NCBI RefSeq assembly: GCF_030758975.1
Contig: NZ_CP132359.1
Span: 496,001-560,000, forward strand
Direction of reading: 5' to 3'
Origin: Bosea beijingensis
Lineage (GTDB): Bacteria > Pseudomonadota > Alphaproteobacteria > Rhizobiales > Beijerinckiaceae
Length of the DNA stretch: 64,000 bases
The position numbers were made by a program, and so were the translations under genes. This document shows positions 5,334 to 41,450 of the stretch, piece by piece; position 1 is the stretch's first letter, and every line of letters begins with the position of its first letter. The notes below the pieces were generated by a model. It ran no database searches and was not told where the DNA came from. It worked only from the letters and a program-made list of their open reading frames with translations.

Positions 5334-6224
5334 CTAGAGCGGCCCGAGATCGCGCACGATCAGGTTGTAGAGCGCCTGCGCGGCCGGGGTCAGCGTCTCG
5401 CCGCGTCGCCGGATCAGCGAGACCGGCCGGTCGACGATCGGGTTCACCAGCGGAATCTGCGCGAGATCGGGGCGCAGGTTCTCGACGAGCGACTCCACCA
5501 GGATCGCGATTCCCAGCCCTTCCGAGGCCAGCCCGATCGCGCTGGAGAAATACTCGACCACGAACTTGGTCTTCACCTCGATGCCCGAGCGTGAAAGCTG
5601 CGCTTCCATCAGCAGCCGGTTGCCGCTGCTGCCGCCGAGCGTAATCAGGTCATGGCCGGCGAGATCCGCCCAGGCGATGGTCTCGCGTGTCGCCAGCGGA
5701 TGGTCGTTGCGGCAATAGACGACAAAAGGGTCGCGGACCAAAATCTCGTTGTGCAGGTCCTGCTGGTTCGGCGGCTGGACATGCAGGCCGAACTCGGCCT
5801 GGCGCCGCCGCACCGCCTCGATCACCAGCGTGCTGGTCCGGTCAAGTATCTCAACGCGGTTGTTGGGATGGCGCGTGGCATAGCTGCGCAGGATGCGCGG
5901 CAGGCGCCCGTACATCAGCGAGGGCACCGAGGCGATCGTGATGTCACCGGTCGAGAAGCGCGACATCGTCTTCAGCCGCTCGAACGAGCGGTCGACGGCA
6001 TCGAGCATGCGCTGGGCTTCCGGCAGGAATTCGCGGCCGATGCTGGTCAGCGCGACGGTGCGGGTCGTCCGGTCGATCAGCTTCAGCCCGACATGGGCCT
6101 CCAGCCTCTGGATGCGCCGCGTCAGGCCGGTCTGCGTGACGTGCAGCTTCTCGGCCGCCTTGTTGAAGCTGCCGAGCTCCGCGATCTGGATGAAGGCCTC
6201 GATGCCGTCGATAGGATGTTTCAT
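5334..6224 (-). CDS. LysR-family transcriptional regulator
   Basis: This 296-residue LysR regulator has an N-terminal winged helix-turn-helix (residues 1-60; SFNKAAEKLHVTQTGLTRRIQRLE) and a C-terminal periplasmic-binding-protein-like effector domain (about 90-290). It is divergent from the 2-hydroxyacid dehydrogenase gene at 6352. That arrangement is typical for LysR proteins that activate the neighbouring catabolic operon and respond to its substrate. The 127-bp intergenic region starts with an AT-rich stretch (6225-6262) that would suit the regulator-binding site and promoter. Confidence 0.9.
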   Translation of the reverse strand: MKHPIDGIEAFIQIAELGSFNKAAEKLHVTQTGLTRRIQRLEAHVGLKLIDRTTRTVALTSIGREFLPEAQRMLDAVDRSFERLKTMSRFSTGDITIASVPSLMYGRLPRILRSYATRHPNNRVEILDRTSTLVIEAVRRRQAEFGLHVQPPNQQDLHNEILVRDPFVVYCRNDHPLATRETIAWADLAGHDLITLGGSSGNRLLMEAQLSRSGIEVKTKFVVEYFSSAIGLASEGLGIAILVESLVENLRPDLAQIPLVNPIVDRPVSLIRRRGETLTPAAQALYNLIVRDLGPL

Positions 6225-6351
6225 GATAAAAGATCATTGATATATGCCATTATTTCAGCATACGAGCATCGCTTCCTTGGTCAATAGTGTTCCCGAAAGG
6301 CGCCCAACCGCTGCGATGCGGGATGCGAGGCAGCCGTGAGGAAACGCAGAG

Positions 6352-7353
6352 ATGACCGATACCGGTGCCCGCAATCGTGGCAGGCGCGTGCTCGTCACGC
6401 ATGATCGTTTGGCCGAAAACGCCATCGAGCTTCTCAACGCGCATGACGTCGACGTCTTCTTCTCGCCGGCCTATGCGCCGAGCGAGCAGGTGGCCGCGCG
6501 TGCGGCCGAGTTGCAGGTCGACGCGCTGATCGTCCGCCAGGGCCGCGTCGACGACGCGATCATCGCAGCCTCGCCACGCCTGAAGGTCATCGCCAAGCAC
6601 GGCGTCGGCGTCGACAATATCGACCTGCAGGCGGCAGCCTCGCGCGACATCCCCGTCATCCGCGCCATGGGCTCGAACTCGCGCGCCGTCGCCGAACACA
6701 CCATCGCGCTGGCCCTGACCCTGCTGAAGGATATCCCGCGCCTCGACGCCGCCGTGAAGGCCGGCACCTGGCCGAAGCCGAGCTTCATCGGGCGCGACAT
6801 CGCCGGCACCGTGATCGGCCTCGTCGGTTTCGGCTCGATCGGCCAGCATGTCGCCCGGATGGCGCAGGGGCTCGGCATGACCGTTCTCCTGCACGACCCC
6901 CATGCCCGCACGGCGATCGCGCAGTTCGGCGGGGATTGCGAACGCGACCTCGACAGCCTCATTGCGGAAGCCGACATCGTCAGCCTGCATTGCCCGCTGA
7001 CCAACGCCACGCGCGATCTCCTCGATGCACGCCGCTTCGGCCTGATGAAGCCGAATGCCCTCGTCGTGAATACGGCGCGCGGCGCTCTGATCAACGAGGC
7101 GGCCCTTTGCGCCGCGCTGCTGGAAGGCCGGATCGCCGGCGCGGGGCTCGACAGCTTCGCCGTCGAGCCGCCGGCACCGGACAGCCCGCTCTGGGCGCTG
7201 CCCAACCTGATCGCCACCCCGCATATCGCCGGCGTCACCGCGGGATCGGCCAAGACGATGGCCGAGATCGCCGCCCGGCACGTCATCGCCGTGCTCGATG
7301 GAGAAGAGCCGGATGCGGCCAGCCTCGCGAGGTTGACCGAACTTGCAGCCTGA
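6352..7353 (+). CDS. D-isomer-specific 2-hydroxyacid dehydrogenase, phosphoglycerate dehydrogenase-like
   Basis: This 333-residue NAD-dependent dehydrogenase carries the Rossmann motif GLVGFGSIGQ (about residue 155). The catalytic Arg is in NTARGALINE, the Glu in DSFAVEPP, and the His in ATPHIAGVT. The length lacks the ACT-type regulatory domain of longer SerA proteins, so it is more likely a catabolic hydroxyacid or glyoxylate/hydroxypyruvate-type dehydrogenase than the biosynthetic enzyme. GAGGAAA lies about 8 bp before the ATG. It is the first gene of a probable operon with tctCBA and an RraA-like aldolase, so its substrate may be the imported hydroxy-carboxylate or a derivative of it. Confidence 0.85.
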   Translation: MTDTGARNRGRRVLVTHDRLAENAIELLNAHDVDVFFSPAYAPSEQVAARAAELQVDALIVRQGRVDDAIIAASPRLKVIAKHGVGVDNIDLQAAASRDIPVIRAMGSNSRAVAEHTIALALTLLKDIPRLDAAVKAGTWPKPSFIGRDIAGTVIGLVGFGSIGQHVARMAQGLGMTVLLHDPHARTAIAQFGGDCERDLDSLIAEADIVSLHCPLTNATRDLLDARRFGLMKPNALVVNTARGALINEAALCAALLEGRIAGAGLDSFAVEPPAPDSPLWALPNLIATPHIAGVTAGSAKTMAEIAARHVIAVLDGEEPDAASLARLTELAA

Positions 7354-7403: not shown

Positions 7404-8372
7404 ATGAAGGTTGTCTACAAGGCGCTCGCCGCGCTGGCCCTGACCGCGCTCGCGACGACGGCTTCGGCGCAGCAATATCCTGAGAAGCCGATCCGGCTGG
7501 TCATTCCGTTCCCGCCGGGCGGCGGCACCGACGTCGTCGCGCGCGTTATCGCCCAGAAGCTCGGCGAGAGCACCGGCTGGACGCTGGTGGCCGACAACAA
7601 GCCCGGCAGCGGCGGCAGCGTCGGCCTGAGCCTGGCCGGCAAGGCAGCCCCGGACGGCTACACCATCGTCCTCGCGCAGAACGCCAACCTCGTTATCAAC
7701 CCGATCCTCGGCAAGGCCAATTACGACCCGATCAAGGATTTCGCGCCGATCGGCCTCGTCGCCTCCGCGCCGCAGGTGCTGGTCGTCGCCAAGGATTCCC
7801 CGCTCAAGACGGTCGAGGATCTCATCGCCGCCGCCAAGGCCAAGGACGGCAAGCTCACCTTCGCCTCGCCGGGCGTCGGGACAAGCTCGCATCTGGCCGG
7901 TGAACTGATCCAGCAGATCGCGGGCGTGAAATTCCGCCACGTTCCCTACAAGGGTGCGGCCCAGGCCTTGCCGGACCTGCTCGGCGGGCGCGTCGATATC
8001 TACATCTCCTCGGTTCCCTCCGCGATGGTGCAGATCAAGGAAGGCGTGCTGCGCCCGATCGCGGTCTTCGCGAACAAGCGCGATGCCGACCTGCCGGATG
8101 TCCCGACCTTCGAGGAGAAGGGCCTGAAGAACTCCGAGGCCGTGACCTGGTGGGGCCTGGCGGCGCCCGCGGGCGTGCCTGCGCCGATCGTTGAGCGGAT
8201 CAATACCGAGCTCAACAAGGTGCTGCAGCAGCCCGACACCAAGGCCAAACTACGCTCGGCCGGCGCCGAGGCGCTCGGCGGCAGCGCCGAAGAGTTCGGT
8301 GCGTTGATCAAGTCCGACGTGCCGAAATGGACTGCGGTCATCAAAGCGGCCGACGTGAAGGTCTCCGACTGA
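7404..8372 (+). CDS. tctC: Tripartite tricarboxylate transporter substrate-binding protein (Bug/TctC)
   Basis: This is a 322-residue periplasmic solute-binding protein of the Bug family. Residues 1-22 form a signal peptide ending in ATTASA before QQYPEKPIR. The mature N-terminus has the family signature IPFPPGGGTDVVAR, which contacts carboxylate ligands, and a second ligand loop follows at about AQNANLVINP. The ATG at 7404 is preceded by GGGAGGA. The open frame runs far upstream but only through the neighbouring gene in the wrong frame. It is followed by tctB and tctA, so it captures a di- or tricarboxylate for that transporter. The ligand cannot be read from sequence. Confidence 0.92.
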   Translation: MKVVYKALAALALTALATTASAQQYPEKPIRLVIPFPPGGGTDVVARVIAQKLGESTGWTLVADNKPGSGGSVGLSLAGKAAPDGYTIVLAQNANLVINPILGKANYDPIKDFAPIGLVASAPQVLVVAKDSPLKTVEDLIAAAKAKDGKLTFASPGVGTSSHLAGELIQQIAGVKFRHVPYKGAAQALPDLLGGRVDIYISSVPSAMVQIKEGVLRPIAVFANKRDADLPDVPTFEEKGLKNSEAVTWWGLAAPAGVPAPIVERINTELNKVLQQPDTKAKLRSAGAEALGGSAEEFGALIKSDVPKWTAVIKAADVKVSD

Positions 8373-26368: not shown

Positions 26369-26396
26369 CGTCGTGGCAACCCGAGCCTCGGTACCC

Positions 26397-26681
26397 ATGC
26401 CTCATACGCCGGAAGAGAAGAAGCGCGCGGTCACGCGGCTGCGCCGGATCAAGGGGCAGACCGATGCCCTGATCGCCGCCGTCGAGCGCGGCGAGGAATG
26501 CGGTGCCCTGCTCCAGCAGCTCGCGGCGCTTCGTGGCGCCGCGACCGGATTGATGGCCGAGGTTCTGGAAAGCCATCTGCGCGAGACCATGGCCCGTCCC
26601 GCCGAGGCGGCGCAGTCGGCAGCCACTGACAACGATGAAATCGCCGCGATCATGCGGGTCATCCGCCCCTATCTGAAATGA
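26397..26681 (+). CDS. frmR: Formaldehyde-responsive transcriptional repressor FrmR
   Basis: This 94-residue all-helical regulator of the CsoR/RcnR family begins [20 protein letters not shown]. It has Pro2 and Cys35 (in [10 protein letters not shown]), the two residues that formaldehyde crosslinks in E. coli FrmR. The segment [15 protein letters not shown] also matches FrmR. It should repress its own promoter and the frmA-frmB genes until formaldehyde is present. A GTG at 26373 would add eight residues and destroy the Pro2 position, so ATG at 26397 is chosen. The gap to frmA is 25 bp. Confidence 0.93.
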
Positions 26682-26706: not shown

Positions 26707-27819
<1,113 letters not shown>

Positions 27820-28299
27820 ATGCGGATAGCTGGCGACATTTTCGTTCGACAGCCTAAGCCACAGACTTTGAAGGCTTGGGAGCCATTCTGGGATTGCGTT
27901 GATATCCTGTTTGAATTTCAGAACTCGGATATTGATGACGAGCACCCAGAATGGCGCACCAACTGGATTGCAGGCTTGGCCCTGCTACGGTGCGTTGGCC
28001 ATGTCTTAGCCAAAGTGGATGCCTTAACCTCTTCAAGACATCGCACCATGATCGACGCGGCATACAAGGCATGGAAGCTCCCCGGTCAAGCAAATGACAT
28101 ATTCTTTGGGTTTATCGAGAACGAACGAAATAATATTCTTAAAACTTATACGATAGGCGCGCGTATCGAAATTATGAATGGCAATCCAACATTGATTTAT
28201 GGCGATGGCGAAGATGCCCTTCAGGCCTATAGATTAGCCGTTTATTGGTGGCGGCATCAATTAGAGCAGATTGAATTTCAATTGGAGAATGCTCGGTAA
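27820..28299 (+). CDS. AT-rich orphan gene inserted between frmA and frmB
   Basis: This 159-residue ORF has base and codon use very unlike its neighbours, with TTA, ATA and AAA codons abundant in an otherwise strongly GC-biased region. The protein is predicted to be mostly helical. It contains WRTNWIAGLALLRCVGHVLAKVDAL and FFGFIENERNNILKTY; the latter has an R-N followed by a basic/aromatic end, faintly reminiscent of HEPN-type RN-x-H motifs but without the His. No family is identified. The start ATG abuts the frmA stop, and its stop TAA shares its last A with the frmB ATG. It therefore sits in perfect translational coupling within the operon despite its foreign composition. Confidence 0.8.
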   Translation: MRIAGDIFVRQPKPQTLKAWEPFWDCVDILFEFQNSDIDDEHPEWRTNWIAGLALLRCVGHVLAKVDALTSSRHRTMIDAAYKAWKLPGQANDIFFGFIENERNNILKTYTIGARIEIMNGNPTLIYGDGEDALQAYRLAVYWWRHQLEQIEFQLENAR

Positions 28300-29135
28300 T
28301 GGAACTGCTCTCCTCCTCGAAGGCCTTCGGCGGCTCGCAGCGCGTCTACCGGCATGACAGCGCGGCTTGCGCCTGCCCGATGAATTTCGCGATCTACCTG
28401 CCGCATCAGATCGAGGACGGGCCGGTTCCGCTGCTCTGGTATCTCTCGGGCCTGACCTGCACGCACCAGAACGTCATGGACAAGGGCGAGTATCGCGCTG
28501 CCGCCGCCGCCAACGGCATCGCCATCATCTGCCCGGATACCAGCCCGCGCGGCGAAGGCGTGCCGGACGAGCCGGATAACTGGCAGTTCGGCTCCGGCGC
28601 CGGCTTCTATCTCGACGCAACGCAGGAACCCTATGCCAGGAACTACCGCATGGAGACTTACATCCGCGACGAACTGCCGGAACTGATCGGCCGGCATTTT
28701 CCGGTCGACATGAACAGGCAGGGCATCTTCGGCCATTCCATGGGCGGACACGGCGCGATCACGCTCGCGCTCAAGAACCCTGACCGCTACCGCTCCGTTT
28801 CCGCCTTCGCGCCGATCGCCCAGCCCTCGACGGCCGGCTGGTCGCGCCCGGCATTCGAGAAATACCTGGGACCGGACGAGACCACATGGCGTGCCTATGA
28901 CACGACCCTGCTGATCGCCGATGGTCACCGTATCCGCGACCTTCTGGTCGACCAGGGCACGGCCGACGGCTTCCTCGAGGAGGGCCTGCGCCCGCAATTG
29001 CTCGATATCGCCTGCGCCGCTGCCGGCATCCCGCTCCAGCTCACGATGCGCGACGGCTACGACCATTCCTACAACTTCATCTCGACCTTCATGGCCCAAC
29101 ACATTGCCTGGCATGCCGAGCGCCTGACCGCCTGA
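28299..29135 (+). CDS. frmB: S-formylglutathione hydrolase
   Basis: This 278-residue alpha/beta hydrolase of the esterase D type hydrolyses S-formylglutathione to formate and glutathione, the step after FrmA. The nucleophile Ser is in FGHSMGGHGA (about 148). The acid Asp is probably in VDQGTADGFL and the catalytic His in YDHSYNF. The oxyanion region LTCTHQNVMDKG is conserved. Its ATG shares one base with the stop of the AT-rich ORF upstream, so ribosomes probably re-initiate from it. Formate produced here could be activated by Fhs, encoded at 35723. Confidence 0.95.
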   Translation: MELLSSSKAFGGSQRVYRHDSAACACPMNFAIYLPHQIEDGPVPLLWYLSGLTCTHQNVMDKGEYRAAAAANGIAIICPDTSPRGEGVPDEPDNWQFGSGAGFYLDATQEPYARNYRMETYIRDELPELIGRHFPVDMNRQGIFGHSMGGHGAITLALKNPDRYRSVSAFAPIAQPSTAGWSRPAFEKYLGPDETTWRAYDTTLLIADGHRIRDLLVDQGTADGFLEEGLRPQLLDIACAAAGIPLQLTMRDGYDHSYNFISTFMAQHIAWHAERLTA

Positions 29136-41355: not shown

Positions 41356-41450
41356 CGTCATTCCGGACAAGCGGCGAAGCCGCGCCGATCCGGAATCCAT
41401 CGAAGGGCTCAGCACTCTATGATGGATTCCGGGTCAAGCCCGAGATGACG
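41356..41450. repeat. Intergenic palindromic repeat, family C
   Basis: Left arm CGTCATTCCGGACAAGCGG to GATCCGGAATCCAT (41356-41400) and right arm ATGGATTCCGGGTCAAGCCCGAGATGACG (41422-41450) form an imperfect palindrome. It lies between the convergent idnO and glmM. The GTCATTCCGG/ATGACG ends resemble the family D element at 63054. Confidence 0.75.

Follow-up and report, generated by a model that had tools for sequence, protein, structure and literature searches.

A foreign gene of a conserved protein family has exactly replaced the spacer between frmA and frmB in Bosea beijingensis, and a diverged relative of this gene occupies the same junction in another bacterial family. The window, meaning the whole 64,000-nucleotide stretch of DNA that was analysed, contains this guest as an open reading frame of 159 codons (159 aa) between frmA and frmB, with all three genes on the + strand. 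An alternative upstream start for frmR (GTG at 26373) is possible. The features of the locus are as follows.

26400..26681, + strand: frmR-type repressor (DUF156 family; Pfam PF02583, E 1.5e-19)
26707..27819, + strand: frmA, class III alcohol / S-(hydroxymethyl)glutathione dehydrogenase (Pfam PF00107 and PF08240)
27817..27822, + strand: left junction TGA-ATG, the guest ATG (27820) standing immediately after the frmA TGA (27817-27819)
27820..28299, + strand: guest gene, AT-rich, 159 aa (open reading frame, homologues, empty sites in relatives, GC and GC3)
27988..28002, + strand: guest codons R57 to H61 (R57 and H61 invariant in 168/168 filled alignment rows)
28126..28149, + strand: RX4KX[YF] motif, R103-N-N-I-L-K108-T-Y110 (168/169 rows)
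28284..28301, + strand: guest 3' end, now the frmB ribosome-binding region (GGAG 11 nt before the ATG; stop-start overlap TAATG)
28299..29135, + strand: frmB, S-formylglutathione hydrolase (Pfam PF00756, E 7.5e-53)

The last A of the guest TAA (28297-28299) is the first base of the frmB ATG at 28299. The guest has a GC content of 0.467, as against 0.653 for frmA and 0.651 for frmB, and a third-position GC (GC3) of 0.49, as against 0.91 and 0.85. When the window was scanned in sliding segments of 480 bp (n=2118), a single segment fell below the GC of the guest, and that segment overlaps the guest itself. That the guest is a real gene follows from its 154 homologues and the strict conservation of residues among them.

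FrmB is present in 45 of the 61 genomes of the genus set, including that of the window, and the frmA-frmB spacers were read at the 29 best matches of the 44 other genomes with FrmB (loci L053-L081). At each of these loci frmA adjoins frmB, a spacer of 109-230 bp begins after the same frmA TGA, and the guest is absent (0/29). Because the spacer is present at all 29 same-genus loci read, the spacer in the window has been swapped exactly, from the frmA stop codon to the frmB start codon; no remnant of the relatives' spacer was found in the window. In all 29 relatives the frmB ATG is preceded, at a distance of 7-11 nt, by an AAGG core (7-9 nt in 28 of them), which is lost in the window and replaced by the GGAG inside the guest, 11 nt upstream, together with the TAATG overlap. 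In the relative L081 the core likewise lies 11 nt from the frmB ATG. A target-site duplication was considered on account of the AATG at both ends of the insert, but was rejected, as the spacer of the relatives has been replaced and the insert has no common left end with the Parvibaculum copies described below.

As a separate observation, an extragenic palindrome core (GTCATTCCGG, CCGGAATGAC or half of it) is matched ahead of frmB in 21 of the 29 same-genus spacers. Full palindrome cores occur in the window at 41357, 63060 and 63180, and none lies near frm.

A wider sample of the class comprised 385 genomes, of which 113 have FrmB at E<=1e-40. At 89 of the 114 frmB places outside the window the upstream DNA was read, and 26 of these were dropped (no frmA at 60% identity in the stretch read), leaving 63 pairs with frmA upstream of frmB on the same strand. 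In 56 of the 63 the gap is shorter than 300 bp and nowhere stays open for 80 codons on that strand. In the seven pairs that exceed this, the longest open reading frames were judged by eye to encode VOC (L180, L254), Gfa-like (L215), cupin (L190) and diacylglycerol-kinase-like (L207, L219) proteins, with one of unclear type (L233). The guest lies between frmA and frmB in 0/63 class-wide pairs read, and a profile search of the 385 genomes returned two matches, one being that of the window and the other in a genome without a listed FrmB. The frmA-frmB junction is thus normally empty but accepts guests.

These comparisons bear on an earlier, sequence-only reading of the window, which had described a gene of lower GC and unusual codons touching the frmA stop and overlapping the frmB start by one base, at a place where frm operons normally hold no gene. 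Both the composition and the boundaries hold, as does the normal vacancy of the place, and the comparison with related genomes that the reading had proposed found the guest absent. Its view that the gene had been accommodated rather than inserted at random accords with the exact stop-to-start exchange. The further proposal that frmB can be translated only by perfect coupling is consistent with the loss of the AAGG core and with the TAATG overlap; the word "only" goes beyond these observations, as the 11-nt spacing is also found in L081.

The place is not unique to the window. Forty Parvibaculaceae genomes were searched, of which 22 have FrmB and three have a homologue of the guest; one of the three homologues (in G496) is not at frm, and the other two, in the Parvibaculum metagenome-assembled genomes L016 and L019, lie between frmA and frmB and share 34% and 33% identity with the window protein, respectively. 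The frmB loci read in this family numbered 23, from 22 genomes, with the weak match L130 left out. Two of these hold the guest, 11 have a one-base overlap of frmA and frmB, five have a gap of 2-19 bp by the aligned start (L122 and L124 have an ATG also overlapping the stop), three have a gap of 575-591 bp (L120, L121, L125), and two lack frmA on the contig. The L121 gap contains a GNAT acetyltransferase gene (by Pfam); that of L125 reads alike, and the opening part of the L120 gap is like that of L121. The L016 guest overlaps both of its neighbours, with its start on the frmA stop and with its TAA on the frmB ATG; in L019 there are 14 nt between the guest and frmB. Both guests are AT-rich (GC 0.45 each). 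Among 51 homologue loci checked, L016 and L019 are the only ones with frm flanks on both sides; in L024 the contig ends in an frmA fragment, which lies ~2.7 kb away from the guest on the other strand. Presence at the junction is therefore not conserved as it would be for a component of the frm system, at 0/29 loci in the genus, 2/23 in Parvibaculaceae and 0/63 class-wide.

A tree of 83 of the 169 alignment rows, with 200 bootstrap trees, groups the window copy with P0002 and P0066 (97/89), P0002 being its nearest relative, and places the Parvibaculum rows apart (100/98); the frm copies are united in 0% of the bootstrap trees. The tree thus favours two origins of the guest at the frmA-frmB junction. 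The Parvibaculum branch is long and its placement unsure, and the well-supported branches taken alone would be compatible with one origin.

The protein had been called an orphan, which is not the case: 154 other proteins match it at E<=0.01 (155 counting the window's own). The family appears to be undescribed in the sense that no convincing Pfam, PHROG, NCBIfam or PADLOC model was found among 36 members scanned. The window protein alone has no Pfam match up to E 10. With the 36 members searched up to E 1, no Pfam family matched more than three members, the best E was 0.023, and no HEPN family appeared. PADLOC gave only three single-member matches (E 0.0095-0.05), so that no member was recognised as a known anti-phage protein, and PHROGs and NCBIfam gave single-member matches at most. 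A sequence search of solved structures returned one match, to an Ig-like protein at E 0.38.

The family alignment comprises 169 rows (matches of at least 100 aa, duplicates removed, from 211), in all of which R103, N104 and K108 are invariant. For R103 and N104 this invariance arises partly by selection, since both were part of the search pattern for genome-contig loci, which did not include K108. The predicted fold is a helical bundle with a beta-hairpin at residues 114-127. By this prediction helix 2 would end with R57 and H61, and helix 4 with R103, N104 and K108; in an up-down bundle both helix ends would be expected to face the same end of the molecule.

The resemblance of the motif to that of HEPN proteins, which had been proposed loosely from the sequence, stands; membership of the guest in the HEPN superfamily is unproven, and the protein is best termed HEPN-like. 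HepT toxins are described (PMC7641770) as carrying RX4HXY. The Rx4-6H catalytic motif was found in none of the guest family rows, RX4K being present in 169/169 and RX4H in 0. Anantharaman et al. (PMC3710099) note that some HEPN families are without this histidine and have another conserved histidine upstream, a pattern that the upstream H61 of the guest would fit. In profile comparisons by hhalign, the match to 29 HepT sequences was insignificant (E 0.35), with its best segment on the motif; those to AbiV (0.077), AbiU2 (0.17) and DUF3644 (0.56) were insignificant and off the motif. PD-Lambda-5_A gave 0.19, and two unrelated null families gave 0.4 and 0.6. The fold matches of the guest are at the level of a generic helical bundle; the MtlR entries 3brj and 3c8g, named in PMC3710099, are not among the fold matches listed, which is no evidence of absence. 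No MNT gene adjoins the guest, as would be found in an HEPN/MNT pair, its neighbours being frmA and frmB.

The neighbourhoods of the homologues are frequently of a defence type. Defence-type genes were counted in 43 homologue loci (L003-L036, L042-L044, L046-L049, L082 and L083; left out were L002, L037-L041, L045, L051 and L106, L045 being the same record as L027 by match), and 19 of the 43 have such a gene within the flanks read (up to 8 kb). In 10 of the 43 the gene was tested or annotated: DUF3644/PDC-S19 (L004, L006, and L042 by Pfam), PD-Lambda-5_A (L005, L012), DrmB (L020), ThsA (L030), a C5 methylase (L025), Vsr (L032) and AbiE (L083, by record annotation). Nine further loci (L003, L007, L023, L028, L031, L033, L036, L043, L048) were assigned by clustering with tested neighbours. 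The PADLOC scan of neighbours covered 122 of 124 chosen open reading frames, those longer than 900 aa being left out, with 25 of 147 families listed, and therefore yields no figures for single loci. As a small control, one of 24 long open reading frames of the window matches PADLOC at E<=1e-15 (IetA model). PD-Lambda-5 is presented in PMC9519451 as an experimentally found broad anti-phage system. Homologues are also found on eight IMG/VR contigs and two plasmids, with none among 50,697 named phage records. Insertion at tRNA genes was considered and rejected: among 15 loci scanned, a tRNA adjoins the guest in L004 and lies ~1.7 kb off in L012.

Several individual loci are described here for their arrangement. 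Within the 61 genomes of the genus set, the family is matched in two, including that of the window; the other homologue, L002, is distant (36% identity) and overlaps both of its neighbours. It is nested between 126-aa and 387-aa genes with overlaps of 4 and 1 bases (L002:137-2922), downstream of a helix-turn-helix gene (by Pfam) and a small gene that is toxin-like by eye, and the downstream 387-aa neighbour has a CRNDFLHG motif by eye and no Pfam or PADLOC match. On three alphaproteobacterial contigs homologues adjoin rpmD of the spc ribosomal-protein operon (L029:5209-5721, L015:2514-3002, L037:6082-6324), on the strand of the operon in L029 and opposite to it in L015 and L037. The L015 homologue has an in-frame stop and that of L037 is truncated; L029 and L015 separate in the tree, for which L037 is too short. 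In L017 (5327-8215) the homologue overlaps the end of an SRAP gene (PF02586), and a second gene at 7529-8215 is very similar to the SRAP gene by eye, so that the guest lies between two copies. In L018 the guest (5884-6435) and a fumarate hydratase gene share an ATGA, in which the stop of the former overlaps the start of the latter; the DNA of this record is high in GC, so that its title, Oceanobacillus, looks misassigned.

The explanation favoured here, at roughly even confidence, is that the guest is a laterally acquired, probably defence-related and loosely HEPN-like gene, now co-expressed as frmRA-X-B. It would be a horizontally acquired, single-gene member of a family whose genes frequently neighbour anti-phage defence genes and occur on IMG/VR contigs and plasmids as well, and in an ancestor of the strain it would have replaced the whole frmA-frmB spacer to give frmR-frmA-guest-frmB. 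No promoter- or terminator-like match was found inside the guest by a simple scan, so transcription of the gene should start at the FrmR-controlled promoter, and translation would proceed by stop-start coupling on both sides. Its most likely function would be within the mobile defence repertoire, as an effector or accessory that is directed at RNA in the manner of HEPN proteins: the protein would bind or act on RNA as a defence or growth-control effector, or as the partner of one. On this view a permissive and regulated junction houses the gene, which would not serve the oxidation of formaldehyde. A more far-reaching version, which must be called doubtful, holds that a mobile family of single genes for defence or growth control, whose HEPN-like site has lysine for histidine (RX4KX[YF]) and an R/H pair upstream, has repeatedly become a scarless cistron of the formaldehyde operon. 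If true, a defence effector would stand under formaldehyde (FrmR) control, as an operon-embedded and metabolite-inducible effector.

The sequence-only reading had left a toxin-like guest and a formaldehyde-related function side by side. The defence-type genes near many homologues speak against the latter, as does the limitation of frm flanks on both sides to L016 and L019 of the 51 loci. A formaldehyde-related role, for example as a non-catalytic HEPN-like post-transcriptional regulator of frm, seems unlikely, if worth keeping in view. In its favour, a second lineage has a homologue at this junction, acquired separately according to the best tree, and an frmA fragment lies ~2.7 kb from the L024 guest; control by FrmR would make the guest formaldehyde-inducible; and a precedent is offered by MtlR, described in PMC3710099 as an HEPN family of mannitol operons that is partly non-catalytic and partly without the catalytic motif, for which such regulation has been proposed. 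Against this, the guest is missing from all 29 same-genus loci, from 21 of 23 Parvibaculaceae loci and from all 63 class-wide pairs read, and flanking by both frmA and frmB is confined to two of the 51 loci. Unrelated genes, too, are found at the junction (GNAT by Pfam; VOC-like, cupin-like and Gfa-like by eye), which weakens any specific link to formaldehyde.

It is improbable that the family, or an element carrying it, actively targets operon stop-start junctions for scarless insertion. The exact boundaries in the window and in L016 would fit such targeting, as would the TA before the frmB ATG in all three frm copies, the overlaps with both neighbours in L002, with the upstream gene in L017 and L043 and with the downstream fumarase gene in L018, and two arrivals beside rpmD that lie apart in the tree. 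Against it stand the lack of a recombinase and of a shared left end, the 14 nt that separate guest and frmB in L019 and, in most of the 53 loci scanned, a guest that overlaps neither neighbour; selection for operon compatibility would explain tight ends equally well. Descent from an ancestral frm gene that nearly all relatives have lost, which could be argued from the position common to two families and from the supported branches, compatible with one origin given the long and uncertainly placed Parvibaculum branch, is very improbable in view of the separate grouping of the window (97/89) and Parvibaculum (100/98) copies, joined in none of 200 bootstrap trees, the low GC3, and the near-universal absence of the gene from the frm operons read. 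The chance of an assembly or contamination artefact is negligible: its unusual base composition is all that would suggest one, whereas the genome is a single contig of 5.56 Mb, the reading frame is intact with the invariant residues of the family, and the same architecture is found in two other genomes.

The locus shows cleanly, to the base, how a foreign gene has taken the place of an operon spacer, and this seems to have happened at this junction on two independent occasions. It thereby becomes possible to test which properties let an operon junction admit a guest. By its invariant residues and neighbours, the guest family is also a defined candidate for phage-defence and RNase assays.

Compared with known systems, the guest differs from the HEPN superfamily (HepT of HEPN/MNT, AbiV, MtlR) by the lysine in place of histidine in all 169 rows, by the additional predicted beta-hairpin, and in having neither a significant profile match nor an adjoining MNT gene. 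It sits inside the frmR-frmA-frmB operon and should be co-expressed with it, but is absent from nearly all frm operons examined. A further comparison is with the accessories of defence islands such as PDC-S19/DUF3644 and PD-Lambda-5: the guest family differs from these in having no significant sequence similarity to them and no constant partner, and resembles them in its neighbourhoods and its sporadic occurrence.
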